Of a stretch of DNA of 64,000 bases, positions 21,284-33,468 are shown in pieces. Below the pieces are notes generated by a model. That model worked only from the letters and a program-made list of their open reading frames with translations, did not search any database and had not been told where the DNA came from. The position numbers and the translations under genes were made by a program. The stretch lies in assembly GCF_010093205.1 (NCBI RefSeq), contig NZ_PDWN01000001.1:310001-374000 (forward strand), in the 5' to 3' direction. Source of the DNA: Pseudoxanthomonas daejeonensis. Its GTDB lineage: Bacteria; Pseudomonadota; Gammaproteobacteria; Xanthomonadales; Xanthomonadaceae. Every line of letters begins with the position of its first letter. Within the stretch, counting starts at the first letter, position 1.

Positions 21284-21314
21284 AATGACACCGGTTACCG
21301 TCCTTCGCTAGAAT
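21284..21314 (+). promoter_or_regulatory. kduI promoter with overlapping LacI-type operator
   Basis: A -35-like ATGACA (21285-21290), an 18-bp spacer and a -10 TAGAAT (21309-21314) lie 65 bp upstream of the kduI start. The near-palindrome AATGACACCGGTTACCG (21284-21300) covers the -35 box. This is the arrangement expected for repression by steric exclusion of RNA polymerase. Confidence 0.6.
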
Positions 21315-21378
21315 GGCACCCCAATGCACAAACCACGCCCCGCCAACGCGGGGTGCGCACCACCCGAGGAGCCCCACG

Positions 21379-22227
21379 ATGTACCAGAAGACCTATTACG
21401 CGACCCATCCCGGCGTCATGCAGGGCGCAAGCAACGACGAACTGCGCGACCTGTATCAGATCGGCGACCTGTTCGCCGCCGACGAAGTGCGGCTGAACTA
21501 CACGCACTACGAGCGCTTCGTGATCGGTGGTGCCGCCCCGGTGGGCAAGTCGGTGTCGCTGCCCAAGCAGACCGAGCCGGCCTCGGCCGCGGGCAAGCCC
21601 TTCCTGGAACGCCGCGAGCTGGGCGTGATCAACGTCGGCAACGGCGCCGGCACCGTCACCGTGGACGGCACCGCCTACACGCTCGGTCCGAAGGACGGCC
21701 TGTACGTGGCGATGGGCAGCGAGGACGTGAGCTTCGCCTCGGCCGATGCCGCCAATCCTGCCAAGTTCTACCTGACCTCGACCCCGGCGCACGCGCGCTT
21801 CGAGACCAAGCAGCTGTCGATCAAGGACGCGGTTGCGCTGGAGCGCGGCGCGCTGGAGACCAGCAACGAACGCACCATCTACCAGTTCATCGTGCCGGCC
21901 ACCTGCCAGTCCTCGCAGCTGCTGCTGGGCCTGACCGTGCTCAAGCCGGGCAGCGTGTGGAACACCATGCCCCCGCACCTGCACGACCGCCGCAGCGAGG
22001 TCTATTTCTACTTCGACCTCGGCGCCAACGACCGCGTCTACCACTTCATGGGCCAGCCGGACCAGCAGCGTCACATCGTCATGCAGAACGACGAGGCGGT
22101 GGTCTCGCCGCCGTGGTCGATCCACATGGGTTCGGGCACCAGCAACTACGCCTTCATCTGGGCGATGGGTGGCGAGAACCTGGACTACACCGACATGAAG
22201 GTGCTGGACATCTGCCAGCTGAAGTGA
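21379..22227 (+). CDS. kduI: 4-deoxy-L-threo-5-hexosulose-uronate ketol-isomerase
   Basis: A 282-aa cytoplasmic isomerase that converts 5-keto-4-deoxyuronate, the opened unsaturated galacturonate, to 2,5-diketo-3-deoxygluconate. It is a two-cupin protein with the metal site in [16 protein letters not shown] (two His and Glu), a fourth ligand His in the downstream cupin strand, and the typical N-terminus [17 protein letters not shown]. The length equals the family norm. A GAGGAG ribosome site precedes the ATG. A repressor-type operator overlaps the promoter. kduD follows after a REP element. Confidence 0.95.
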
Positions 22228-22263
22228 GGCGGCGCGCCGCCGGCACCGGCGGAGACGCTGCAC

Positions 22264-22361
22264 GTAGGGCGGGGCGTGCCCCGCTTGCTCCACCACAACG
22301 CGCCGGGTGATCGAGAGCCCGGCTTCCCAGAATGTGTCCAGCGGGGCGAGCCCCGCTCTAC
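22264..22361. repeat. Paired inverted GTAG REP elements between kduI and kduD
   Basis: It begins GTAGGGCGGGGCGTGCCCCG and ends in the reverse complement of GTAGAGCGGGGCTCGCCCCG. Each half is itself a hairpin, and together they make a BIME-like unit of 98 bp. It fills most of the 147-bp gap between the two kdu genes and may tune relative expression by stabilising or pausing on the mRNA. Confidence 0.8.
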
Positions 22362-22374
22362 GAAGGAACCGCTC

Positions 22375-23133
22375 ATGGCAAGCAATCCGTTCAGCCTGCA
22401 AGGCAAGGTCGCGCTGGTCACCGGCGCCAACACCGGCCTGGGCCAGGGCATCGCGCTGGCGCTGGCCGCCGCCGGCGCCGACATCGCCGCCGCCGGCATT
22501 GTTCCTGCCGACGAGACCGGCGAGAAGGTCAAGGCGCTCGGCCGGCGCTTCCTCAACGTCGACGCCAACCTGATCAGCATCGAGCCGGTCACCCGGATCG
22601 TCGAGGAGACCGTCGCCGGCCTGGGCGGCCTGGATATCCTGGTCAACAACGCCGGCCTGATCCGCCGCGCCGACGCGGTCGACTTCAGCGAGAAGGACTG
22701 GGACGACGTGATGAACGTCAACATCAAGTCCGCGTTCTTCATGTCGCAGGCCGCCGGCCGGCATTTCATCGCCCAGGGCCGCGGCAAGATCATCAACATC
22801 GCCTCGATGCTGTCGTTCCAGGGCGGCATCCGCGTGCCGTCCTACACCGCCTCCAAGAGCGGCATCGCCGGCATCACCCGGCTGCTGGCCAACGAGTGGG
22901 CGGCCAAGGGCATCAACGTCAACGCGATCGCGCCGGGCTACATGGCCACCGACAACACCGCGCAGCTGCGTGCCGACGAAGACCGCAACAAGGCGATTCT
23001 GGACCGCATCCCGGCGTCGCGCTGGGGCGAGCCGGCCGACCTGGGCGGCACCGCCGTGTTCCTGGCCAGCAGCGCCGCGGACTACGTCAATGGCGCGGTG
23101 ATCCCGGTCGACGGCGGCTGGCTGGCGCGCTGA
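22375..23133 (+). CDS. kduD: 2-deoxy-D-gluconate 3-dehydrogenase / 2,5-diketo-3-deoxygluconate reductase
   Basis: A 252-aa short-chain dehydrogenase that reduces 2,5-diketo-3-deoxygluconate to 2-keto-3-deoxygluconate, the step after KduI. The nucleotide-binding motif is TGANTGLGQG and the structural motif is NNAGLIRR. The catalytic residues are Ser in IASMLSFQGG and Tyr/Lys in SYTASKSG. The C-terminus VNGAVIPVDGGWLAR matches KduD proteins. An AAGGA ribosome site precedes the ATG at 22375. A Rho-independent terminator follows. The subsequent KDG kinase and aldolase are not in this window. Confidence 0.93.
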   Translation: MASNPFSLQGKVALVTGANTGLGQGIALALAAAGADIAAAGIVPADETGEKVKALGRRFLNVDANLISIEPVTRIVEETVAGLGGLDILVNNAGLIRRADAVDFSEKDWDDVMNVNIKSAFFMSQAAGRHFIAQGRGKIINIASMLSFQGGIRVPSYTASKSGIAGITRLLANEWAAKGINVNAIAPGYMATDNTAQLRADEDRNKAILDRIPASRWGEPADLGGTAVFLASSAADYVNGAVIPVDGGWLAR

Positions 23134-23225
23134 TCGGCTTCGGGCCGCGGGCCGCAGCCGCCACTCCGGTGCCGGCTGCCCCCCTCTCCGGACCCGCGGC
23201 CGGAGCCGATACCGACGATGCAACA

Positions 23226-23259
23226 CCCCGCCCGGCCTGGCCGCTGGCGGGGTTTTTTT
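23226..23259 (+). terminator. Rho-independent terminator after kduD
   Basis: CCCCGCC pairs with GGCGGGG, followed by seven T. It lies directly before the next gene (ATG at 23273), so that gene needs read-through or a promoter inside this short gap. Confidence 0.75.
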
Positions 23260-23272
23260 CGAGGATGCCCGC

Positions 23273-24403
23273 ATGATCGTCCGACTGCTGCCGCTGGTCT
23301 TCCTGCTCGCCGGCCTTGCGGCCCCGGCTGCGGCCGATGCCGCGCCGCGCCGCGTGTTCATCGCCGGCGACTCCACCGCCGCCGAATACGGTCCCGAGCG
23401 CGCGCCCCGCAACGGCTGGGGCCAGCAGCTGCAGGGCTTCCTCGACCCGGCCTATTTCGAAGTGCGCAACCACGCGATCGGCGGACGCAGTTCGCGCAGC
23501 TTCATCGAGGAAGGCCGGCTGGAGCCGATCGCCAAGGCGCTGCGCAAGGGCGACATCCTGCTGGTCCAGTTCGGGCACAACGATGCCAAGTACGAAGATC
23601 CGAGCCGCTACAACGAGCCCGCGCAGGCCTACCCGCAGTGGCTGATGCGCTACGTGGCGGCCGCCCGGGAACAGGGCGCCACCCCCATCCTCCTGACACC
23701 CGTGTCACGGCGCGTCTGGGACTTCGGATCCCTGCTGGATACCCATGCACGCTACACGCAGGCGGTGCGCGAACTGGCCGGGCGCGAGCAGGTCGCGCTG
23801 ATCGACCTCAATGCCAGCAGCACCGACTGGTTGCGTGCGCTGGGCGACGCGGCGTCGACCGCGTACTTCGAGCACGTCCCGGAACGCGGCGTGCGCGATG
23901 ACACGCACTTCAGTGCCGCCGGCGCGACGATGGTCGCCTGCCTGGTGGTGCGCGACTGGAAGGCCGTGGATCCGGCACTGGCCCCGCACGTGGTGCGCGA
24001 CACCGACTGCGGCGCGCCGTCCAGCGCGCGCGCGGACCAGACCGCGCAGAACAACCCTTCCTCGGTGGTGCACGAGCGCGATTTCGCCCGCCAGCAACCC
24101 GGGCCGCATGGCGGACCGGGCACGACCACGGCCTACCCGCTGTTCGCCGATGCCCCCGGCCTGCCCTTCGTCATGCGCAAGCGCGTGCTGCACCCGGGCG
24201 CCGGCATCGGCCTGCACCAGCACCACAAGGACGAGATCTATTACGTGGTCGCCGGTCGCGGGCGCTACGTGCTCGACGGCCGCCAATACGAGGTGGCACC
24301 GGGGAACGCCATGCTCACCCGTGCCGGCAGCACCCACGCGATCGAGCAGGTCGGCGAGGAGGACTTGGTCCTGCTGCTCGCGTATCCGGCTTCACCTCGC
24401 TGA
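23273..24403 (+). CDS. Rhamnogalacturonan-acetylesterase-like SGNH hydrolase fused to a cupin domain
   Basis: A secreted 376-aa two-domain protein. After a signal peptide (residues 1-~24) residues 27-~240 form an SGNH/CE12-like esterase: IAGDSTAAEYG (Ser34), IGGRSSRSF, LVQFGHNDAKY and VRDDTHFSAAG (Asp/His). A linker of ~40 residues leads to a cupin (about 296-376) with metal ligands in GLHQHHKDEIYYVV (His315, His317, Glu322) and His355 in GSTHAIEQ. The cupin recalls KdgF-type enzymes that linearise unsaturated uronates, but small cupins are too alike to be sure, and this one would be periplasmic. The gene is a paralogue of the esterase at 9393, which lacks a cupin. GAGG lies 9 nt before the ATG. 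Confidence 0.85.
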   Translation: MIVRLLPLVFLLAGLAAPAAADAAPRRVFIAGDSTAAEYGPERAPRNGWGQQLQGFLDPAYFEVRNHAIGGRSSRSFIEEGRLEPIAKALRKGDILLVQFGHNDAKYEDPSRYNEPAQAYPQWLMRYVAAAREQGATPILLTPVSRRVWDFGSLLDTHARYTQAVRELAGREQVALIDLNASSTDWLRALGDAASTAYFEHVPERGVRDDTHFSAAGATMVACLVVRDWKAVDPALAPHVVRDTDCGAPSSARADQTAQNNPSSVVHERDFARQQPGPHGGPGTTTAYPLFADAPGLPFVMRKRVLHPGAGIGLHQHHKDEIYYVVAGRGRYVLDGRQYEVAPGNAMLTRAGSTHAIEQVGEEDLVLLLAYPASPR

Positions 24404-24767: not shown

Positions 24768-26084
24768 ATGGCGGCAGTTCCCGAAATCCGTCCCCGGTGC
24801 ATGATCTGGCTGGGCCGGCCCACGATCCAGGAGCGCGAGGTACTGGCCGCCGCAGGCTGGGACCTGCGCGTGATCGAGAACCCCTGCGACACGCGCATCG
24901 GCCTGCGCGGCAGCGACCGCGTCGCAGCGCTGATGGACCTGCGCCATGCCGATGCCGAATGGCTGGCGGCGATGCAGGCGCTGCTGTCGCGCCATTCCGA
25001 TCTTCCGCTGGTCGCGTTCGGCGATGAAGCCGGCCCCCTTGATTCCGAATGCCTGCTGCGGCTGCGCGAACCGCTGGACCTGGCGCAGATCCAGCGCCTG
25101 GCGCAGATCATCGACGGCGACCACCTGGTTCGCGGCAGCGCCAGCACCGATTCCCTGGTGGGCGGCAGCGCCGCGATGCTTGCGGTACGCGCGAACCTGC
25201 ACAAGTTCGCGCCCGTCGAGCTGCCGGTGCTGGTCACCGGCGAAACCGGCACCGGCAAGGAACTGGCAGCACGCGCCCTGCACGAGATGTCGACGCGCCG
25301 CGGGCGGCCATTCGTCGCGATCAACTGTGGCGCGTTGCCGGCCAGCCTGGTCCAGTCGGAGCTGTTCGGCCACGAGAAGGGCGCGTTCACCGGCGCGGCT
25401 GCCCGGAGGATCGGCCTGTTCGAGGCCGCCGATGGCGGCACCGTATTCCTGGACGAAATCGGCGACCTGCCGCTCGATGCACAGACCAACCTGCTGCGCG
25501 TGCTGCAGGAAGGCACCTTGGAGCGGGTCGGCAGCCACCATACGATCCGCGTTGACGTCCGGGTGGTCGCGGCAACCCACGTCGACCTGGAGGAAGCCGT
25601 CACGCAGGGCCGGTTCCGCCAGGACCTGTTCTACCGGCTGGACGTGTTGCGCCTGCACATGCCGCCGCTGCGCGAACGAGGCGACGACGTGGAACTGCTG
25701 GCCAAGCACTTCCTGGCCCGGTTCCGCGAGCAGCACCGTGTACGCGCGCGGGGCTTCGATGCTTCGGCGCGCCGGGTGCTGCGCAGCCATGGCTGGCCGG
25801 GCAACGTGCGTGAACTCATGAACCGGGTGCGCCGGGCGGCCGTGGTGGGCGAAAGCGACCTGCTCGACGCGCAGGCCTTGCAGCTCCAGGATGCCGCCGA
25901 AGCTGCCGCCAGCGACGGCCTGGGCGAAGTGCGCGTGCAGGCCGAACGCGAGGCCATCCTGGCGACGCTGCGCGACTCGGGCTTCAACGTCAGTGAATGC
26001 GCGAGGCGGCTGCGGGTTTCCCGCGTCACCGTCTACCGGCTGTGCAAGAAACATCGGCTGGCGCTCGGCGCGCTGCGCCCCTGA
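24768..26084 (+). CDS. Sigma54-dependent activator (AAA+, Fis-type HTH) next to fap-like operon
   Basis: A 438-aa enhancer-binding protein. Residues ~10-120 form a degenerate receiver-like domain (VAALMDLRHAD occupies the phospho-Asp region), similar in layout to VpsR-type regulators. The AAA+ domain has Walker A GETGTGKE at 158-165, the sigma54-contact loop GAFTGA at 205-210, and Walker B TVFLDEIGDLPL. The Fis-type helix-turn-helix (NVSECARRLRVSRVTVYRL) ends the protein. The intact GAFTGA loop means it should activate sigma54 promoters. One such promoter lies in front of the convergent six-gene amyloid operon (32187-32204), so that operon is its likely target. AGGAG and AGGAA precede the ATG. 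Confidence 0.92.
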   Translation: MAAVPEIRPRCMIWLGRPTIQEREVLAAAGWDLRVIENPCDTRIGLRGSDRVAALMDLRHADAEWLAAMQALLSRHSDLPLVAFGDEAGPLDSECLLRLREPLDLAQIQRLAQIIDGDHLVRGSASTDSLVGGSAAMLAVRANLHKFAPVELPVLVTGETGTGKELAARALHEMSTRRGRPFVAINCGALPASLVQSELFGHEKGAFTGAAARRIGLFEAADGGTVFLDEIGDLPLDAQTNLLRVLQEGTLERVGSHHTIRVDVRVVAATHVDLEEAVTQGRFRQDLFYRLDVLRLHMPPLRERGDDVELLAKHFLARFREQHRVRARGFDASARRVLRSHGWPGNVRELMNRVRRAAVVGESDLLDAQALQLQDAAEAAASDGLGEVRVQAEREAILATLRDSGFNVSECARRLRVSRVTVYRLCKKHRLALGALRP

Positions 26085-26171
26085 CTGCGTCGTCCTGCAA
26101 TGGTGGAGCGCGCGCGGTGAGACCTGCCCGCCCTGGCCGCCTGGGGCTGCGGCCTGGCGGGCAGGGAACAC

Positions 26172-27539
26172 CTACAGCGAGTACGGCACCCTGAAGCCGA
26201 GGCTGAAGTCGGGCGCGTCAGGCGTCAGGCCGATTCCCAGCAGGCCCACCATGGTCGCGTTGGGGTTCAGCGCGTAGGTCACGCCGAGATTGAACATCGC
26301 CGAATTGGCGTCGCTGCCGATGACCTTGTTCCAGGGTGTTCCCTCGCCCCGCGTCTGCGCGCGTGCGCTGAGTCGGTTGCTCAGCGACATGCTGAAACTG
26401 GTCCGCTCGTTGAACGCGAACGCCACGCCGCCGCCGAAGTAGAACGAATCCCCCAGCCTGACGTCACCCGGGTTGACCGTATCCGGGTTGTTGTCGATGT
26501 CGTCGAAGCTGGTGGTGAACGAGTAGGTGTAGCCGATGTTCCCGAACAGGATCGCCGGGTCGCTGGTCTTGACCGCGGACACGCCGATGCTCGCCTGCCA
26601 TGCGCCGTTGCCGGTGGGTTGCTCGTCCGGCACCGCGAAGCGGATGAAGTCGTCGTCGTCGCGCTCGAGCACCGTCCACGGGATCCCGTAGGGTTCCTGC
26701 CCGGTGGGCATGGTCACGCCGAAGTTGAGCACGGTCTCCGGCCGGCTTCCCTGCTCGGCCAGCAGCCGGTAGTTGGCACTGGCGGTGATGTCGCCCAGGC
26801 CATTCCCGGTGGTTTCCTCCTGCGCGATGGACGCCGCTGCGCCGCCGGCGCCGCCCTTCTGGTACACGGTCTTGCGTGCGATGTAGGGCACGTCCAGGTT
26901 CAACGTCAGGTTGGGGCTGACGCCCCAGCGGGCGGCGAGGTTGTAGTTCAACGTGTCCGACTCGACGTTCTCGACGGCGATGTTGCCGAGGAAGATCGCA
27001 TCGAGGGCCAGGAAACCGTTGAGGGTCAGCTGCTTGCGATCGTAGCGGTTGTAGGTGAGGCCGTTCTCGATCACCAGGCGCTGGTCGAACAGCGTCCGGG
27101 TCGCCTGCTTCACGTCGGCTACGCTGCGCGACATCGGCTCGCTCTGGGCCTGCTCGGCCTCGGCGGCGGTGCTGGCGTAGCCGGCCGACGATGGCGGCGG
27201 CGCGGCCGCTGCTCCCGGCGTCCCCGGTGACGGTGCCGCGGTCGGGGCCGTTGCCGGCGCCATCGCTGCACCCTGGGTGGCAGTCGGCACCTTTCCGGCC
27301 AGGCGGGCCTGGAGCGCCTGGACCTGCATGTCCAGCTCGCGCAAGCGCCGCACTTCCTGCGCGTAGCTGGCCTTGAGCTCGGCCAGCTGTTCGCTGAGCT
27401 GCCGCAGGTCGGCTTCGTCCGCCGGCGATCCGGCCTGTTGCGCCGAAGCGAGAGAGGAAAACGTGAGGCCGATCACCGCCATGATCGCGCCGCTCAATGC
27501 TGGAACCGATGAACCCTGCCGCTGTTGCTTCCTGACCAC
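26172..27539 (-). CDS. fapF: FapF-like outer-membrane amyloid secretion channel
   Basis: A 455-aa outer-membrane protein, the last gene of the amyloid operon. A signal peptide (ending SLASAQQ) is followed by a heptad-rich coiled coil (LRQLSEQLAELKASYAQEVR, residues ~45-85), an Ala/Pro linker (~85-125), a helical segment with TRTLFDQRLVIENGLTYNRY, and a 12-strand-type barrel ending in LGFRVPYSL. FapF of Pseudomonas has the same plan: a trimeric N-terminal coiled coil, a plug helix and a barrel that exports the amyloid subunits. Transporter-family barrels of this type also occur in other loci, so the call rests on the coiled coil plus the six-gene order. The start is a GTG at 27539 with GGGGGA upstream. 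Confidence 0.78.
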   Translation of the reverse strand: MVRKQQRQGSSVPALSGAIMAVIGLTFSSLASAQQAGSPADEADLRQLSEQLAELKASYAQEVRRLRELDMQVQALQARLAGKVPTATQGAAMAPATAPTAAPSPGTPGAAAAPPPSSAGYASTAAEAEQAQSEPMSRSVADVKQATRTLFDQRLVIENGLTYNRYDRKQLTLNGFLALDAIFLGNIAVENVESDTLNYNLAARWGVSPNLTLNLDVPYIARKTVYQKGGAGGAAASIAQEETTGNGLGDITASANYRLLAEQGSRPETVLNFGVTMPTGQEPYGIPWTVLERDDDDFIRFAVPDEQPTGNGAWQASIGVSAVKTSDPAILFGNIGYTYSFTTSFDDIDNNPDTVNPGDVRLGDSFYFGGGVAFAFNERTSFSMSLSNRLSARAQTRGEGTPWNKVIGSDANSAMFNLGVTYALNPNATMVGLLGIGLTPDAPDFSLGFRVPYSL

Positions 27540-27575
27540 GTGACTGTCCCCCGCCGTTCCTGGCTGTGTATTCGG

Positions 27576-28409
27576 TTAGTACCCGATCGCGATTCCGCGG
27601 CTCAGCGAGATCGCCTGGGCCACGTTCTGGCCCAGCGCTGCGCGACCCTGGGACGAATTGCGGACCAGGTCAAGCTCCATCCAGTTGCTGGCCTGGTGTC
27701 CGTCGACCGCCAGCTGGATCGTCTGCCCCATGCCGCTGTGGCTCACCCACTGTTCGACGGCGCCCTGTCCATCGATCTGCAGCAGCACGCGGGCGGCGTT
27801 GTCTTCCAGCAGCGCCGTGGCCGTCATGCCCGCCGCGCTCGTCGTGGCAATGCTGGTTGCGGCGATGGCGTGCGGGGTCGAAGCGTCGGGCGCCGCGGCG
27901 AGCGCGAGCGAATCGGCCGGCGGCGACGCGGGGGCCTCCTGCTGTTCGCGCACGGTGATCTGCGCGGTGTTCTGGGCGACATTGCCATCGCCGGCGACCT
28001 GCACGCTCTGGACCACGCCGCTGACATTGGCCAGCCCGGCGTTGTCGATCTCGCGCTGGCCCGAAGGTATCGGCGACGGGGCATCGACCGCGGTGATGCT
28101 GACGTGCGGCTGGAAGGTCACGGTCGGCTTGCCCGGCGCGCGCCCATCCATCGTCACGGTCATGCTGCTCTTCAGTTGCTGTCCGGCCTGGGTCTGCCAG
28201 GTGGACACCATGGTCACGCCGAACCAGGCGACGGTATTGCTGCTGACCGTGTAGCGGCCGCGCATGTCGCCCATTTCCTCGTCGGTCAGCTCGGTCAGGC
28301 CACTGCCGCCCTGCGGCGCCGCCGGCGGCGCATCCTGCGCCAGCGCCGACATGGCCGCCGGCGCGGTGGCCAGGCCGATGGCAAGACTGAGGATCCGTTT
28401 TCCGTTCAT
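27576..28409 (-). CDS. Secreted protein in FapE position of amyloid operon
   Basis: A 277-aa exported protein (signal ending MSALAQD). The N-terminal part has LTELTDEEMGDMRGRYTV, an acidic D-E-E-M-x-D-M-R-G segment also common in small proteins near such loci. This is followed by beta-rich sequence (VAWFGVTMVSTWQTQAGQQL) and a C-terminal SSQGRAALGQNVAQAISLSRG. Gene order places it where fapE lies in Pseudomonas; FapE is extracellular and found with the fibre, but its function is not well defined, and I cannot claim homology by eye. The ribosome site GGAGC overlaps the fapD stop codon, so translation is probably coupled. Confidence 0.6.
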   Translation of the reverse strand: MNGKRILSLAIGLATAPAAMSALAQDAPPAAPQGGSGLTELTDEEMGDMRGRYTVSSNTVAWFGVTMVSTWQTQAGQQLKSSMTVTMDGRAPGKPTVTFQPHVSITAVDAPSPIPSGQREIDNAGLANVSGVVQSVQVAGDGNVAQNTAQITVREQQEAPASPPADSLALAAAPDASTPHAIAATSIATTSAAGMTATALLEDNAARVLLQIDGQGAVEQWVSHSGMGQTIQLAVDGHQASNWMELDLVRNSSQGRAALGQNVAQAISLSRGIAIGY

Positions 28410-28421
28410 GTTTCGATGCTC

Positions 28422-29138
28422 CTAGAACAGGTCGGCATGGCTGAAACCGAAGTCGAGCAGCTCGGCGTCGGTGATTGGTCCTTGCCGCGCATACAGCGCC
28501 CTGGCGCTGGGCTTGCTGCTGGGCTGGAGCAGCACCGTGTTTCGATCGAAGTCGGTGCCGATAACGACGAACACCGCGCGGGACGGCCACGCTTCGAGGA
28601 AAACGGGCAACGGCATCACCCGGTTGCCGAGGATCGGATCGCCGATCTCGACCTGGTCGCCGATGATCTGCTTGAGTACGACGAAATGGCGGAAGCCATT
28701 GACGTCCATCAGTACCAGGCTCGGGACCCGCAGCGAACGCAGCTTGTCCTCGTCGACCCGGTAACCGCGCCCGCGCATGCCCAGCGATTCGACATAGCGC
28801 TTGATGTCCAGCAGCGAGAAGCCGCGCTCGCGCACCACGTCCGCATCGGCCATCGCGAGCATGCCTTCGATCACCGTGTTCTCGTCCGCATCCAGGTGGT
28901 AGGCATGTCGCAGGATGGTCGCCAGCGATGCCGCCGCGCAGCTGTAATCGGTCTGCTGGCGCACCAGGTTGCGGAAGCGCGACTCGCGCATGCTCTCCAC
29001 GGGCGTGTGGTACAGCGCGCCGTTGGGTAGTACCCCGGCGAAGGCCACGTCCGCGGCGCGTGCCGGCTGCGCCGGCGCAAGCTGCAGCGCCAGGACTACC
29101 AGCGTCAGGGCCAGGCTCGGCAGCACGGGTCGCGACAT
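28422..29138 (-). CDS. fapD: FapD-like C39-family cysteine peptidase
   Basis: A 238-aa exported peptidase (signal ending PARA). The C39 fold is clear: catalytic Cys67 in QTDYSCAAASLATIL, His151 in DVNGFRHFVVLK and Asp167 in VEIGDPILG. In Pseudomonas, FapD is a periplasmic C39 peptidase needed for amyloid export; it is thought to process Fap components. Here it lies between the amyloid subunit gene and the FapE-position gene, exactly as in the fap operon. The start at 29138 (AGGAAA upstream) was chosen because the signal peptide begins there. A very stable hairpin precedes the gene. Confidence 0.85.
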   Translation of the reverse strand: MSRPVLPSLALTLVVLALQLAPAQPARAADVAFAGVLPNGALYHTPVESMRESRFRNLVRQQTDYSCAAASLATILRHAYHLDADENTVIEGMLAMADADVVRERGFSLLDIKRYVESLGMRGRGYRVDEDKLRSLRVPSLVLMDVNGFRHFVVLKQIIGDQVEIGDPILGNRVMPLPVFLEAWPSRAVFVVIGTDFDRNTVLLQPSSKPSARALYARQGPITDAELLDFGFSHADLF

Positions 29139-29196
29139 GGCGGCGTTTCCTCGGATCCGGGTGTGTTGCGAATAGGTCCGCCGTCGAGGAGTGGAA

Positions 29197-29227
29197 GCCC
29201 CGCCCCGCGGGGGAGGCGGGGCGGGGC
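29197..29227 (-). terminator. Intra-operon hairpin between amyloid subunit and fapD
   Basis: A perfect 12-bp GC stem (GCCCCGCCCCGC with GCGGGGCGGGGC, 7-nt loop) lies 75 nt after the stop codon of the major subunit and 59 nt before fapD. There is no T-run. It is well placed to act as an attenuator or 3'-end stabiliser that keeps subunit mRNA above secretion-machinery mRNA. Confidence 0.6.
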
Positions 29228-29302
29228 ATCCGTGATTTCCCGGCCACGGCGGATGGACGGGAGTCACTCCTGCATCCCTTGCGGGATGTTCAAGCGGTTG
29301 TG

Positions 29303-30955
29303 TTACTCGCCACCGCCACCGCCGCCACCGCCACCAGCCGAAGGCTGGGCCACGGCCAGCGACAGGCTGTTGGCCTGCTGGTTGCCGGTACCGGCCGACA
29401 CGTTCACGCCGATGTTGCCGGACGCGCGCGCGAAGGCGTCGCCGGACAGCGAGGCGGTGTTGGTCGCGGCAACCACCGTGTCGATGGTCGGCACGGCCAG
29501 CACGCCGGACAGCGAGGCGCTCAGTGCGTCCGGACCCAGCTCGCCGAACGTGATGGTGCCTTCCTCATCCGAATCGAAGGCGATGCCGCCGACGCCGGGG
29601 GCGTAGGGATTGTCGACCGCATTCTGGATCTCATTGTCCATGTCGATGTGGCCGGTCTCACCGCCAGACGGGTGGTCGAGGCCGCCATCCCACGTATCCA
29701 GGTAGAAGTTGTCCTTCTGGTAGGAATTGCCGGTGCCCTGATAGGTCACCTGGCCCAGGCTGCCGCGGATGTTGCCCTGCAGGCTGATCCCCACTTCACG
29801 CAGGCCTTCCTCGACCTTCGGCGCGTTGGACACCGCGTTGCCCGACGACATCTGGTTGGAGCTGACGGCCGCCGAGGCATACCGCGAGGTCGCAACCGAA
29901 GCGGCCAGGCCGTTCTTCTGCTGGTTGTTGTTGCCCGAGGTCACGTTCACGCCGATGTTGCCCGTGGCGTCGGCGAACGCCGCATCGGCCACGCCGGCGG
30001 TGTTGGTCTGGCCAAGGTTGCTGGTGGCGTTGCCGCTGCCGCTCTGCTGCACGAACACCTTCGAATCCGCCAGGCCGAACGCGAAGCTGGCATCGGCCGC
30101 CGACAGCGCGGCTGCATTGTCCTGCTGGTTGTTGTCGCCAGCGCCGACGTTGAACTGCAGGTTGCCCTGCGCCGCGGTGGCGGTGTTGTCGCCGATCGAA
30201 GCGTCGTTGGTCAGCTCGTCGTTCATGCCGAGGTTGCCGCTGTTGCTCTGGCGGTTGTCGATGACGGCGATCGCGGCCGAATCGATCTCCAGGTCACCGG
30301 ACACGGTCGGGCTGCCGGTGAAGTCGATGTCGGAGGTCAGCGACAGGTCGGACTCGAGTTCGGCCGAAACACCATGCTCGTCCACTTCCTTGTCGATGGT
30401 GATGTCGTGGTCGACGTTGACGTCTTCGTCGTGGTTGATGTCGGTGTCGACGACGTTCCGCTGGTAATCCCATCCCATGTCGATGTCGACATTGCTGTCG
30501 ATGGTGCTGTTCCTCTCGAACGTGTCGCTGTACGAGGTATCCATGTCGTGGGTAGCGGTCGTCGTCCGGTCGAACGAATCGCTGTAGGACGTATCCACGT
30601 CGTGGGCGATGGTGGTGTCGCGATCGAACGAGTCGCTGTACGACAGGTCCATGGCCTTGGTCACGTCCGAGGTGTATGACGTGTCGACCGTGTTGTTCAC
30701 ATCGGAGGTATACGAAGTATCGACCGTATTGTCGACCGTATTGGTGACAGCGGAGGTGTAGGCCTTGTCTACCGTCGAGGTGTAGGACTTGGTCTTGCTG
30801 AGGTTCGTATCGACGTTGGTATCGACGTCAGTATCGATCGTGGTGTTGGTCGTCCAGTTGTTGACGATGTTGTTGTCGATGGTGGTTTCGGCATTGGCCG
30901 ATGTCGCGGCGGCGATCGCCACGGCAAGCACGGTCCACTTGATGTTCCTTTTCAT
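29303..30955 (-). CDS. fapC: Major Fap-like amyloid subunit / repeat adhesin
   Basis: A 550-aa exported protein (signal ending TSANA). Residues ~30-180 are low-complexity repeats rich in Asp, Thr, Ser, Tyr and Val: two copies of NTVDTSYTSDV and three of the form DTSYSDSFDR. The C-terminal half carries the amyloid-type unit ATGNIGVNVTSGNNNQQKN and a second copy ASGNIGVNVSAGTGNQQAN, plus related GNLQFNVGAGDNNQQDN. These G-x-(I/L)-x-(V/F)-N-V-x-x-G-x-x-N-Q-Q units are like the Fap subunit repeats. The protein ends in nine glycines and Glu. AGAGAGGA precedes the ATG. Its place between the B- and D-type genes matches fapC, but the Asp/Tyr repeat region is not something I know from FapC. Confidence 0.72.
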   Translation of the reverse strand: MKRNIKWTVLAVAIAAATSANAETTIDNNIVNNWTTNTTIDTDVDTNVDTNLSKTKSYTSTVDKAYTSAVTNTVDNTVDTSYTSDVNNTVDTSYTSDVTKAMDLSYSDSFDRDTTIAHDVDTSYSDSFDRTTTATHDMDTSYSDTFERNSTIDSNVDIDMGWDYQRNVVDTDINHDEDVNVDHDITIDKEVDEHGVSAELESDLSLTSDIDFTGSPTVSGDLEIDSAAIAVIDNRQSNSGNLGMNDELTNDASIGDNTATAAQGNLQFNVGAGDNNQQDNAAALSAADASFAFGLADSKVFVQQSGSGNATSNLGQTNTAGVADAAFADATGNIGVNVTSGNNNQQKNGLAASVATSRYASAAVSSNQMSSGNAVSNAPKVEEGLREVGISLQGNIRGSLGQVTYQGTGNSYQKDNFYLDTWDGGLDHPSGGETGHIDMDNEIQNAVDNPYAPGVGGIAFDSDEEGTITFGELGPDALSASLSGVLAVPTIDTVVAATNTASLSGDAFARASGNIGVNVSAGTGNQQANSLSLAVAQPSAGGGGGGGGGE

Positions 30956-30999
30956 GGTGTCCTCTCTCTCTTGCTTTTCAGGTTGGTAGGATTACCGCC

Positions 31000-31650
31000 T
31001 CACGGACCGGGCGAAATCGACAGCAACAGCTGGTTGCCGGTTTCATTGGCCGAGCCCGCGATCTGGTTGAGCTGCAGCACGCCCTCGAACCCGCGCAGCG
31101 CGGTGGCTTCCACTGCCACGTTGCGGCTGGCGGTCCTCCCCGCCGGGTTGCGGGTGCGTTGCCGCTCCGCCGACGCGAACGCGCTGGTGGACAGGGAACT
31201 GCCCGGCGCTTCGCGTGTGCTCTGTTGCGCCTGCACCAGCGACACCGCGTTCTGTTCCGCGTTGCCGCTGCCGCTGGCCTGGTTGATCGATGCGATGCCG
31301 CTGGCGCCGGAAAGCGCCGAGCCGCCGATGCGCGCACTGGCGTGCAGCGGCGTGTCGTAGACGTCCTGGCTGCGCTTCTGGCTGGCACTCAGCTGCACAC
31401 TCGCCGCGTCACCGATGGCCAGCGCGTGCAGGTTCGCTTGCTGGTTCAGGTCGCCAGCCGCCATGTTCACGGCCATGACTCCGCTGGCGCCGGCCAGCAC
31501 CCGGTCTTCGATCCGGGTCTGGGCCAGGTAGCCAAGCATGTCCGTGTAATCGTCGGCCCGCGCCTGGCCCGCCAGCAAAGCAACGACGCAGGCGAGGATC
31601 CCGCACGAGGGCGAGGCACTGCGCGCAAGACGCACGGCCCTGGTGGTCAC
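31000..31650 (-). CDS. fapB: Minor Fap-like amyloid subunit
   Basis: A 216-aa exported protein (signal ending GQARA). It has three repeats of the Fap subunit kind: GASGVMAVNMAAGDLNQQAN, GASGIASINQASGSGNAEQN and GFEGVLQLNQIAGSANETGN. Size, repeat type and position before the major subunit match FapB, the presumed nucleator. The start is GTG at 31650 and overlaps the stop of the preceding gene by 4 bp (GTGA), so translation is coupled. The gap to the fapC start is 44 bp with a fresh strong ribosome site, which fits higher expression of the major subunit. Confidence 0.7.
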   Translation of the reverse strand: MTTRAVRLARSASPSCGILACVVALLAGQARADDYTDMLGYLAQTRIEDRVLAGASGVMAVNMAAGDLNQQANLHALAIGDAASVQLSASQKRSQDVYDTPLHASARIGGSALSGASGIASINQASGSGNAEQNAVSLVQAQQSTREAPGSSLSTSAFASAERQRTRNPAGRTASRNVAVEATALRGFEGVLQLNQIAGSANETGNQLLLSISPGP

Positions 31651-32153
31651 GGGCCGGTACCTGGGTTGCCCTGGCTGCCACCCATCGGCAACTGGGAAAG
31701 CGCCCCGGTGATGGTCGGCGCAATGCCCCGGGTCGCGCCCGTGACCGCGCCCGTGGCGCCGCCCACGCTGCGACCGAAGCTGCCGCCGGAGAACACACTG
31801 CTTTCGCCGGTCAGCCGGCCCATCGAACCCTGCAGCGCGCGGTCGGTCATCTGCGCCGGCATGGTGGCGCCACCACCACGGGCATCCACCTGCCCGCTCG
31901 ACATGGTTGCGAAATCCTCGTCCGTCATCTCGCCAGTGCCGAGGCTCTGGTGGATTTCCCGGGTCGGGGTGGGGTCGACGATCAGGGCGATCCCGGGGGG
32001 AGCCTGGCGATACGCGGGTCGTGCGCTGACGTCGCGCAGCAGTACGATCTCCCCGCGATCAGCATGGACACCGGTATGCGCATCGGCCGCCACTGCAGCC
32101 ACCGGTGCGAACAGCACGACCAGGACGGACAGAGTGGCGAGATGTCGTGGCAT
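31647..32153 (-). CDS. First gene of amyloid operon (FapA position), exported protein
   Basis: A 168-aa exported protein (signal ending AAVAAD). It contains EMTDEDFATMSSGQVDARGG, which resembles the acidic D-E-E-M segment of the FapE-position protein, and a Gly/Ala/Thr-rich C-terminus (GGSFGRSVGGATGAVTGATR). In Pseudomonas, the first gene fapA affects the balance of FapB and FapC in the fibre. Homology cannot be shown by eye, so the call is positional. GGGGA lies 6 nt before the ATG, and a sigma54 promoter lies 34 bp upstream. Confidence 0.6.
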   Translation of the reverse strand: MPRHLATLSVLVVLFAPVAAVAADAHTGVHADRGEIVLLRDVSARPAYRQAPPGIALIVDPTPTREIHQSLGTGEMTDEDFATMSSGQVDARGGGATMPAQMTDRALQGSMGRLTGESSVFSGGSFGRSVGGATGAVTGATRGIAPTITGALSQLPMGGSQGNPGTGP

Positions 32154-32186
32154 GTGGGGATCCCCGCGTGTAGGCGGAATCAGGAA

Positions 32187-32204
32187 CGCACGCCCTATGC
32201 CAAG
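32187..32204 (-). promoter_or_regulatory. Sigma54 (-24/-12) promoter of amyloid operon
   Basis: On the minus strand the sequence is TTGGCATAGGGCGTGCG. It has the invariant GG and GC dinucleotides with exactly 10 nt between them, TTGGCA at -24 and GTGC at -12, close to the consensus TTGGCAC-N5-TTGC. The start point would be about 25 nt before the first ATG. AT-rich DNA upstream (TTTTTATGAAAAATAAC) could bind IHF. A sigma54 activator gene lies next to the operon's far end. Confidence 0.75.
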
Positions 32205-32337
32205 TTATTTTTCATAAAAATATCAATCGCTTGCGTGATTTCATGTGCAAGCATCACCGCGCCGCTGTTACACGGCTGTAGCACCCTTCCGCCGCGCCCC
32301 GACCGCTGGAGCATGCAGCAGCGGCGTTTCCGAGGGT

Positions 32338-32353
32338 GTTTCATCGCTGAAAC
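32338..32353. promoter_or_regulatory. Candidate upstream activator site
   Basis: GTTTCATCGCTGAAAC has perfect 6-bp inverted arms around a 4-bp centre, and lies about 135 bp upstream of the -24 element. Enhancer sites for Fis-type activators are commonly short inverted repeats 80-200 bp upstream. Binding by the 24768 activator is inference. Confidence 0.5.
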
Positions 32354-32382
32354 AGCATCGTGGCGGGTGTACATCCGCGCCC

Positions 32383-33468
32383 TCAGAACAACTCGCCCTG
32401 GGGTGACGACCGGCGTGGCGCGAGGAAGCGGCTGCAGTCCAGGACTTCGGGCCGCCCGGGGTCATAGCCATTCCGGCGCAGGGCCAGGGCGAAACGCTGC
32501 GCCAGCAGGTCCGCGTATTCACCGCGGCCGCGCATGCGGGTTCCGAAGTTGGATTCATAGTCGCGACCACCCCGCATCTGGCGCAGGGCCGCCATCACCC
32601 GGTCGGCACGGTCTGGCACATGTGCCTGCAGCCAGTCGCGGAACAGGGGCGCCACCTCATGGGGCAGTCGCAGCAGTACATAGCCGGCGCTGTCGGCACC
32701 GGCTTCGCGCGCGGCGGCCAGGACAGCTTCCATCTCATGGTCATTCACCCAGGGGATCGCTGGTGCGAACAGCACGCCCACCGGAATCCCGCACTCATGC
32801 AAACGCTGCATCGCCCGCAGCCGCGCGTGCGGCGCGGCGGCGCGTGGTTCCAGCCGCGCACTCAGGTGCGGGTCGAGGGTTGTAACGGAAAAGTGCACCC
32901 GCACCAGGTTCATTTCGGCCAGAGGTTGCAGCAGGTCCAGGTCACGCTCGACCAGCGCGTTCTTCGTGATCAGGCTGAACGGGTGGCGGCATTCGAGCAT
33001 CACCTCGATCAGCCGTCGTGTGATTTGCAGGCGTCGTTCGGCCGGCTGGTAGGCATCGGTATTGATTCCGAGCGCGATCGGGCTGGGCCGGTAACCGGGC
33101 CGGGCGAACTCGCGGCGGAGCAGCTCCGCTGCATTGGTCTTGGCGAAAATTTTCGTTTCGAAGTCCAGGCCAGGCGAGAGGTTGAGGTACGCATGGGAAG
33201 GCCGGGCGAAACAGTAGCTGCATCCGTGCTCGCATCCCCGATAGGGATTGACCGATTGCGAGAAGCCCACGTCCGGGGAATCGTTCCGGCTGATGATGCT
33301 GCGCGCGGTTTCCTCGAAGACCTCGGTTCGTGGTCGCAGCGGATCGGGCCCGGACTCGGGCTCGTCCGGTGCGGTCCAGCCGTCGTCCACCCGCTCGCTG
33401 ACCGAGCGTTCAAAGCGGCCTGGCAGGTGCAGCCGCGATCCGCGGCCCTTGATGGTGTCAGCCATCAT
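32383..33468 (-). CDS. PA0069-family radical SAM protein
   Basis: A 361-aa protein with the radical SAM cluster motif C-x3-C-x2-C in YRGCEHGCSYCFARPSH. Other family signs are RSIISRNDSPDVGFSQSVNP before it and the C-terminal PQGELF. Proteins of this kind (PA0069 in Pseudomonas, distantly like spore photoproduct lyase) are widespread but their reaction is not established; a role in nucleic-acid repair or modification has been supposed. The gene may start at MMAD or one codon later. It stands alone, with the amyloid promoter region on one side and cls divergent on the other. Confidence 0.85.
   Translation of the reverse strand: MMADTIKGRGSRLHLPGRFERSVSERVDDGWTAPDEPESGPDPLRPRTEVFEETARSIISRNDSPDVGFSQSVNPYRGCEHGCSYCFARPSHAYLNLSPGLDFETKIFAKTNAAELLRREFARPGYRPSPIALGINTDAYQPAERRLQITRRLIEVMLECRHPFSLITKNALVERDLDLLQPLAEMNLVRVHFSVTTLDPHLSARLEPRAAAPHARLRAMQRLHECGIPVGVLFAPAIPWVNDHEMEAVLAAAREAGADSAGYVLLRLPHEVAPLFRDWLQAHVPDRADRVMAALRQMRGGRDYESNFGTRMRGRGEYADLLAQRFALALRRNGYDPGRPEVLDCSRFLAPRRSSPQGELF

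Follow-up and report, generated by a model that had tools for sequence, protein, structure and literature searches.

The window analyzed, 64,000 nucleotides of the Pseudoxanthomonas daejeonensis contig NZ_PDWN01000001.1 (positions 310,001 to 374,000), almost certainly harbors a complete operon for functional amyloid of the Fap type, fapABCDEF, with a dedicated sigma54 activator of the BrfA type. This reading draws on the ordered profile matches of the six proteins, the alignment of FapF with the solved structure 5o65, the repeats of the fibre subunits, the FapD triad, the recurrence of the arrangement in 13/13 loci of the genus, the linkage of the activator, the conservation of promoter and palindrome upstream of fapA, and the precedent of BrfA. 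A Fap operon with an adjacent activator is an arrangement already known.

Gene order and proteins of the fap locus

The six genes lie on the minus strand from 32153 to 26172, in the order fapA-B-C-D-E-F on one strand that, like fapBCDEF, marks Fap systems; the activator gene lies on the plus strand, its stop 87 bp from the stop of the convergent fapF (gene coordinates in Table 1 are those of open reading frames). All six minus-strand proteins match Fap models of NCBIfam in this order (E values in Table 1), which bears out the preliminary description of the window, where six genes in the order of the Pseudomonas fap operon had been recognized. FapA and FapE, placed there by position alone, are now matched by models of their own, as are the peptidase, the barrel protein and the subunits; a lack of profile matches for the last three would have refuted the preliminary reading. 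A Pfam search assigned no family to FapA, FapB and FapE, and gave one weak unrelated match for FapC.

FapF aligns over residues 133-453 with the solved FapF 5o65 (phmmer E 5.4e-77). The alignment covers the stretch preceding the barrel, where the plug helix of the 12-stranded FapF barrel is expected; a conserved helix-like stretch at residues 52-82, approximately, is the only sequence feature bearing on the predicted trimeric coiled coil in the periplasm. FapD combines the Cys/His/Asp triad of C39 peptidases with a Sec signal peptide (the latter identified by eye). C67, H151 and D167, described earlier as intact, are invariant in an alignment of 26 sequences, and a profile search gives peptidase domains of the double-glycine type (6mpz, 9.3e-11) as the closest solved structures. 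Imperfect repeats start at residues 57, 118 and 190 of FapB, and at residues 264, 332 and 513 of FapC, a further loose pattern match at FapC residue 297 missing the NQQ core. Three repeats are reported as almost universal in both subunits (PMC12822426).

The N-terminal extension of FapC, about 190 residues long (window 30311-30886), is rich in Asp (37 of 192 residues) and Thr (36 of 192), and DTSYSDSF-like repeats are visible by eye in this stretch. The stretch looks variable, since matches to 12 other FapC copies of the genus begin at residues 81-188 in eight, at residue 1 in three, and are in pieces in one. The FapC C-terminus (window 29303-29340) is made of nine glycines and a glutamate. 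Tails are Gly- or Pro-rich in the other Lysobacterales copies inspected, and feature Cys-x-x-Cys near the end in two Pseudomonadaceae copies. Gene order, FapB and FapC repeats, FapD triad and a FapF matching the solved barrel are shared with the Fap systems of Pseudomonas (UK4, PAO1), from which the window differs in the D/T-rich FapC extension, the tail of FapC, and scores lying under the curated cut-offs.

Table 1. Features of the fap locus. Positions are those of the window, or residue numbers where so stated.
Feature	Position	Strand	Description
fapA	31647..32153	-	168 aa, periplasmic chaperone; NF058617 E 6.6e-12; signal peptide by eye
FapA leader-like segment MTDEDFATMSSG	residues 76-87	-	discussed in the text
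fapB	31000..31650	-	216 aa; GTG start overlaps the fapA stop; NF058557 E 4.1e-24
fapC	29303..30955	-	550 aa, major fibre subunit; NF058558 E 6.5e-51
fapD	28422..29138	-	238 aa, C39 peptidase; NF058616 E 5.6e-78; Pfam Peptidase_C39 1.1e-16; signal peptide by eye
fapE	27576..28409	-	277 aa; NF058559 E 1.2e-24
candidate FapD recognition site LTDEEMGDMRGR-Y	FapE aa 41-53	-	right after the signal peptide
fapF	26172..27539	-	455 aa, predicted coiled coil and outer-membrane barrel; NF058560 E 5.9e-112
sigma54 enhancer-binding activator, BrfA-type	24768..26084	+	438 aa; Sigma54_activat 2.1e-70; HTH_8 9.6e-9; convergent with fapF
sigma54 -24/-12 promoter TTGGCATAGGGCGTGCG	32187..32203	-	33 bases ahead of the fapA start
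palindrome TGTTTCATCGCTGAAACA, predicted activator-binding site	32337..32354	.	TGTTTC-N6-GAAACA; centred some 145 bp upstream from the -24 element
possible second degenerate palindrome TGCTACAGCCGTGTAACA	32266..32283	-	one mismatch to the relaxed pattern; by eye

FapD orthologues were found in 13/17 genomes of the same genus and, apart from one weak match, in none of 14 others compared. In 13/13 fap loci of the genus all six genes and the convergent activator are present, though in broken pieces in one (L030, from a genome 57% complete). By FapF, the closest named relatives are mostly Pseudoxanthomonas, in agreement with the Xanthomonadaceae placement proposed earlier. Across the class, 16 of the 369 genomes drawn have a Fap system, as judged by FapE. 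Three sets of loci (49 loci, 80 named loci, and 20 Pseudomonadaceae loci), partly from the same genomes, gave 130 unique loci after removal of identical pairs and of loci lacking FapD or FapE; all six genes are recognized by our own profiles in 120. The 80 named loci come from Stenotrophomonas, Luteimonas, Lysobacter, Rhodanobacter and kin; fapA, fapB, fapC and fapD were found in 77, fapE in 78, fapF in 80 and a linked activator in 79, several misses sitting at contig ends. FapF is 51-83% identical to that of the window in these loci.

Two named loci reside in records of unexpected title, Bacillus subtilis (L154, FapF identity 67%, within the Stenotrophomonas range) and Candidatus Eremiobacteraeota (L185, 51%), perhaps as a result of contamination, mis-binning or transfer. 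In another genome (G523) FapE matches were found at two different places (L072 and L080), neither stretch featuring the usual activator, and in L080 a single 2.3-kb frame matches both the FapB and the FapC profile. The window locus shows no sign of being a foreign island, since its G+C (0.65-0.69) lies within the range of the flanking DNA (0.63-0.71).

The activator and the region upstream of fapA

The activator is an AAA+ sigma54 activator with a Fis-type helix-turn-helix, and resides beside fap as BrfA does; the earlier claim of a dedicated activator, adjoining and convergent with the operon, is thus upheld by profile and by conserved linkage. In the Pseudomonadaceae fap genomes searched, each yielding 14-24 matches, the best match of the window activator is the gene adjoining fapF in 5/5 cases. 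By place and best match it is probably orthologous to BrfA. An activator is found near fap in 123 of the 130 unique loci: convergent downstream in 96, divergent upstream in 18, on the same strand upstream in eight, and on the same strand downstream in one. No match was found in L072, L077, L080, L102 and L208; in L084 the match is partial at a contig end, and L150 also meets a contig end. Unlike in the window, 13 of the 80 named loci, all titled Stenotrophomonas, have the activator in divergent orientation on the upstream side of fapA; 66 have it convergent.

A -24/-12 element precedes fapA, as claimed in the preliminary description. Such elements occur in 13/13 fap loci of the genus. In upstream regions, TGG[CT]N8TGC was found in 13/13 of the Pseudoxanthomonas group, 26/27 of the other members of order or class, 67/68 named and 6/20 Pseudomonadaceae regions; some of the matches are due to chance, as the chance rate is 0.10-0.13 per region. 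A CGGCA-type element is found instead in 10 of the 20 Pseudomonadaceae regions. Regions were discarded if the FapA match was absent or closer than 350 bases to an end, which left 27/36 (L070-L105), 68/72 (L114-L185), 13/13 and 20/20; L106-L113 were excluded, coming from the same genomes as loci in L021-L033, and the remaining sets still share genomes.

Further upstream, a palindrome is conserved. Of 128 regions upstream of fap, partly drawn from shared genomes, 110 carry the relaxed form TGTNNCR-N4-YGNNACA (Pseudoxanthomonas group 13/13, other order or class 23/27, named 56/68, Pseudomonadaceae 18/20). The strict form is present in 74 of the 128 (7, 14, 41 and 12 in the same four sets); shuffled upstream regions, made for the strict form only, gave 0 to 0.001 matches each. 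The strict palindrome occurs at three places in the 3.56 Mb genome, one being upstream of fapA, and a reversed control pattern at one. Within the window the relaxed palindrome has one match against 0.22 expected per 64 kb (19/100 shuffles have one), the -24/-12 element one match against 0.13 expected (13/100 shuffles have one). Window statistics are weak for each alone, and it is because of conservation that promoter and palindrome are regarded as more than chance. From the same conservation we infer that the palindrome is the binding site of the activator. The gene directly upstream of fapA is a radical S-adenosylmethionine (SAM) gene of the PA0069 family (NCBIfam; window 32383-33468). The palindrome starts 28 bases beyond its stop, and the gene is found upstream on the same strand in 9/13 loci of the genus.

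The closest described counterpart is the fapA-F/brfA locus of P. fluorescens PF07. According to a 2022 paper (PMC9207406), brfA lies on the reverse strand, adjoins fapF downstream, and encodes a Fis-type sigma54 activator in a frame of 1,326 bp (1,317 bp in the window); a -24/-12 promoter before fapA was mapped by 5' rapid amplification of cDNA ends, and fapA and fapC are down in brfA and rpoN mutants. BrfA is described as the activator of fap that senses cyclic diguanosine monophosphate (c-di-GMP) in P. fluorescens (PMC13101488).

The neighboring activator might be merely adjacent, fap being run by FleQ or by another enhancer-binding protein. The genome has five matches to the activator, itself counted, so four further candidates are at hand, and the link to fap is drawn from sequence comparison. 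Yet with five matches in 3.56 Mb, a chance neighbor within about 12 kb is unlikely, and the linkage in 123/130 loci, where the gene lies on one side of fap or the other and in various orientations, the palindrome conserved upstream of fapA, and the brfA mutant data (PMC9207406) make mere adjacency very improbable.

Other observations weigh against a Fap operon controlled in the manner of BrfA. None of the six Fap scores reaches the curated NCBIfam cut-off. For FapE, the cut-off is passed by 0/250 genomes of the host order, the gene being present in 27/250, and by 19/79 Pseudomonadaceae genomes, which are all the 19 with the gene; the cut-offs are hence read as set for the Pseudomonas type. The Gly-rich FapC tail stands where both inspected Pseudomonadaceae copies have Cys-x-x-Cys. 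The activator is 40-47% identical to 19 Pseudomonadaceae neighbors (brfA itself not being among the sequences compared), and only 17-27% in the N-terminal domain. At the N-terminus, the Pfam VpsR sensor domain was found in 23/30 family members and was undetected in the window activator. Two of the c-di-GMP contact residues of FleQ, R144 and N186, are replaced by D128 and A170 at the corresponding positions. FleQ-type residues being partly absent, c-di-GMP sensing by the window activator is at most putative. In PF07, the upregulation of fapA-E did not extend to fapF (PMC9207406), and a single transcript for all six genes is therefore not to be presumed. A literature search on FapC together with VpsR returned nothing; one on Pseudoxanthomonas together with FapC returned a single unrelated paper, and no data on fibres, promoter or binding in Pseudoxanthomonas were found.

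A candidate FapD site in FapE

FapD is needed for FapC secretion and its active-site cysteine is required, but the target is said in the same source to remain unclear, though Rouse et al. 2017 favour FapE (PMC5557850). There, FapE is the only Fap protein reported by mass spectrometry as completely processed at the N-terminus, with no such processing for FapA-D, and FapE peptides are missing for roughly the first 70 residues. By the authors' account canonical C39 sequences are absent from Fap proteins, though GG and GA motifs are noted in FapE (PMC5557850). FapE and FapF are thought to be processed by FapD in a 2025 review (PMC12822426), and FapC is named as the FapD substrate elsewhere (PMC10638192).

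Right after the signal peptide, FapE proteins feature a nearly invariant segment (Table 1). The core [MLIV]RG[RK][YFW] was found in 129 of 131 unique FapE sequences, the exceptions being L073, which reads QRGRF, and L138, truncated by a contig end. A longer pattern, [ILV]xDxE[LM]xx[ML]RG[RK][YF], is present in 123/131, against 0/6,550 shuffles. Leaders of class II (double-glycine) peptides follow the rule LSxxELxxIxGG, and the segment fits this rule at positions -12, -8, -7, -4 and -2. Residues -2/-1 are Gly-Arg in 121 and Gly-Lys in eight of the 129 sequences with the core, and not the Gly-Gly, Gly-Ala or Gly-Ser of canonical C39 sites; because of this FapE works like a double-glycine precursor at most.

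Leader models were scanned on chosen subsets of FapE, FapA and FapB (74 of the 131 unique sequences for FapE). For the 65-residue FapE N-termini, the commonest non-Fap matches in NCBIfam were to the mersacidin-type lantibiotic model TIGR03898 (11/74, best E 0.0039) and to the plantaricin C model (3/74). None of 73 FapB N-termini matched the mersacidin-type model, a rough control, its alignment being poor (11% mean column identity) because the profile edge determined where the sequences start. A Pfam scan of the 74 FapE N-termini gave no leader family, the commonest match being Defensin_propep (4/74, best E 0.015).

We tentatively propose the segment as a candidate site at which FapD may cleave FapE. 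FapE as the FapD target is an earlier idea (PMC5557850, PMC12822426), and the concrete site is what is added here; Supplementary figure 18 of PMC5557850, dealing with FapE motifs, may show the same stretch. A literature search for FapE together with leader peptide gave, among the matches listed, none about Fap by title.

The segment could also be a structural or FapF-docking element left uncut by FapD, an explanation to be held with equal reserve. The Arg or Lys preceding the expected cut, where canonical C39 sites have Gly, Ala or Ser, speaks for it, as does the absence of a Pfam leader family. Later FapE columns (G68, G135, Q141, G144 and N147, in the count of the alignment) are equally invariant, the 70 or so residues missing in mass spectrometry exceed what the site alone explains (PMC5557850), and the action of FapD has been assigned to FapC (PMC10638192). 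Cleavage is favored by the spacing of the segment, by the mersacidin-type matches in FapE compared with FapB, and by the report of FapE as the one completely processed Fap protein (PMC5557850). It is also favored by the protein in the FapE place of a sister cluster described below, which matches our own FapE profile over exactly the leader-like region in 3/3 loci, and reads MRGG where FapE has MRGR.

FapA carries a similar segment, LSDxDFAxVxSG, in 91/121 sequences. Ribosomally synthesized and post-translationally modified peptide (RiPP) families were matched by one of 51 FapA stretches scanned, out of 53 pattern-bearing ones in the subset. FapA was therefore rejected as a processed lantibiotic-type precursor, also because mass spectrometry is reported to see FapA-D peptides throughout (PMC5557850). 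For the same two reasons the FapA segment is at most a decoy.

Elsewhere, double-glycine-type precursors give rise to class II lantibiotics and bacteriocins. In a joint scheme, which we consider possible but short of probable, FapE would be such a precursor. A periplasmic, transporter-free FapD would recognize L-S-D-x-E-L-x-x-M, cut beside the invariant Arg-Gly (MRG/R or MRGR/Y), and so license FapF for export; the matching but altered FapA segment may act as a decoy that holds FapD, and Fap and Fil-like barrels would together make up a single class of outer-membrane fibre exporters gated by C39 peptidases.

A sister cluster and the place of the Fap system

The sister cluster (L034) resides outside the window (G000:C11:242000-257000, minus strand, 9702-5047), with copies in two relatives (L035 and L036). 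It encodes a Gly-rich protein of 465 residues, a 162-residue protein with a weak FapB match, a FapD-like C39 peptidase, a protein weakly matching the FapE profile, and a FapF-like barrel. Among the Fap models of NCBIfam only FapD, FapF and, weakly, FapB (0.00039) were matched. The protein in the FapE place was matched neither by the NCBIfam FapE model nor by tblastn; its matches to our own FapE profile have E values of 2e-6, 5.3e-6 and 1.7e-5 among 287 frames. A small neighbor protein also features MRGG, in 3/3 loci. The FilB/FilC cluster and the sister cluster share with the window a C39 peptidase and a FapF-like barrel, to which the latter adds the weak match to the FapE profile; it differs from the window in the missing NCBIfam FapC match, the different Gly-rich main protein, and GG in place of G-Arg at leader-like sites. 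The sister cluster could be a Fil-related exporter of fibres, gated by a C39 peptidase and little described.

An alternative, in which the window cluster is not true Fap but a sister system resembling it, of the FilB/FilC type, that exports another fibre, is extremely unlikely: FapD and FapF of the window do match FilB (1.5e-29) and FilC (7.3e-21), and the sister cluster with its FapD-like, FapF-like and Gly-rich proteins sits in the same genome, but the scores with Fap models are far better (Table 1), models for FapA, FapB, FapC and FapE were all matched in the window, and the Fil-like cluster lies elsewhere.

Taken as a Fap operon with its own BrfA-type activator, the locus would most likely work as follows. 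By analogy with BrfA, the enhancer-binding protein would become active at high c-di-GMP, bind TGTNNCR-N4-YGNNACA upstream of fapA, as the conservation of this palindrome suggests, and drive the sigma54 polymerase at the predicted -24/-12 promoter. All six Fap proteins would be exported from the cytoplasm by Sec, and FapA would restrain the fibre subunits from forming fibrils. FapD, the C39 peptidase of the periplasm, would trim FapE, as suspected in print, putatively at the leader-like LTDEEMGDMRGR, and FapF would export FapB, FapC and FapE to form surface amyloid for biofilm, as in Pseudomonas.

Among the neighbors, genes resembling by eye those for uronate and pectin breakdown (KduI-like, KduD-like dehydrogenase) lie on the plus strand at window 21313-24403, together with what looks like an SGNH esterase that seems to carry a fused cupin at its C-terminus.

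The preliminary description was correct on the identity of the locus, but overstated how little is known in calling it little-described. Fap systems of Stenotrophomonas and Rhodanobacter were already included in a 2013 survey (PMC3792158), activator and promoter are reported in PMC9207406, and the locus adds another Fap operon to a count that already stands at 1,602 clusters for public genomes (PMC12822426). The pairing of fap with an adjacent activator, known from Pseudomonas, holds across many Lysobacterales too, with a common palindrome as the likely binding site, and the near-invariant candidate FapD site in FapE is a by-product that may be useful to specialists.

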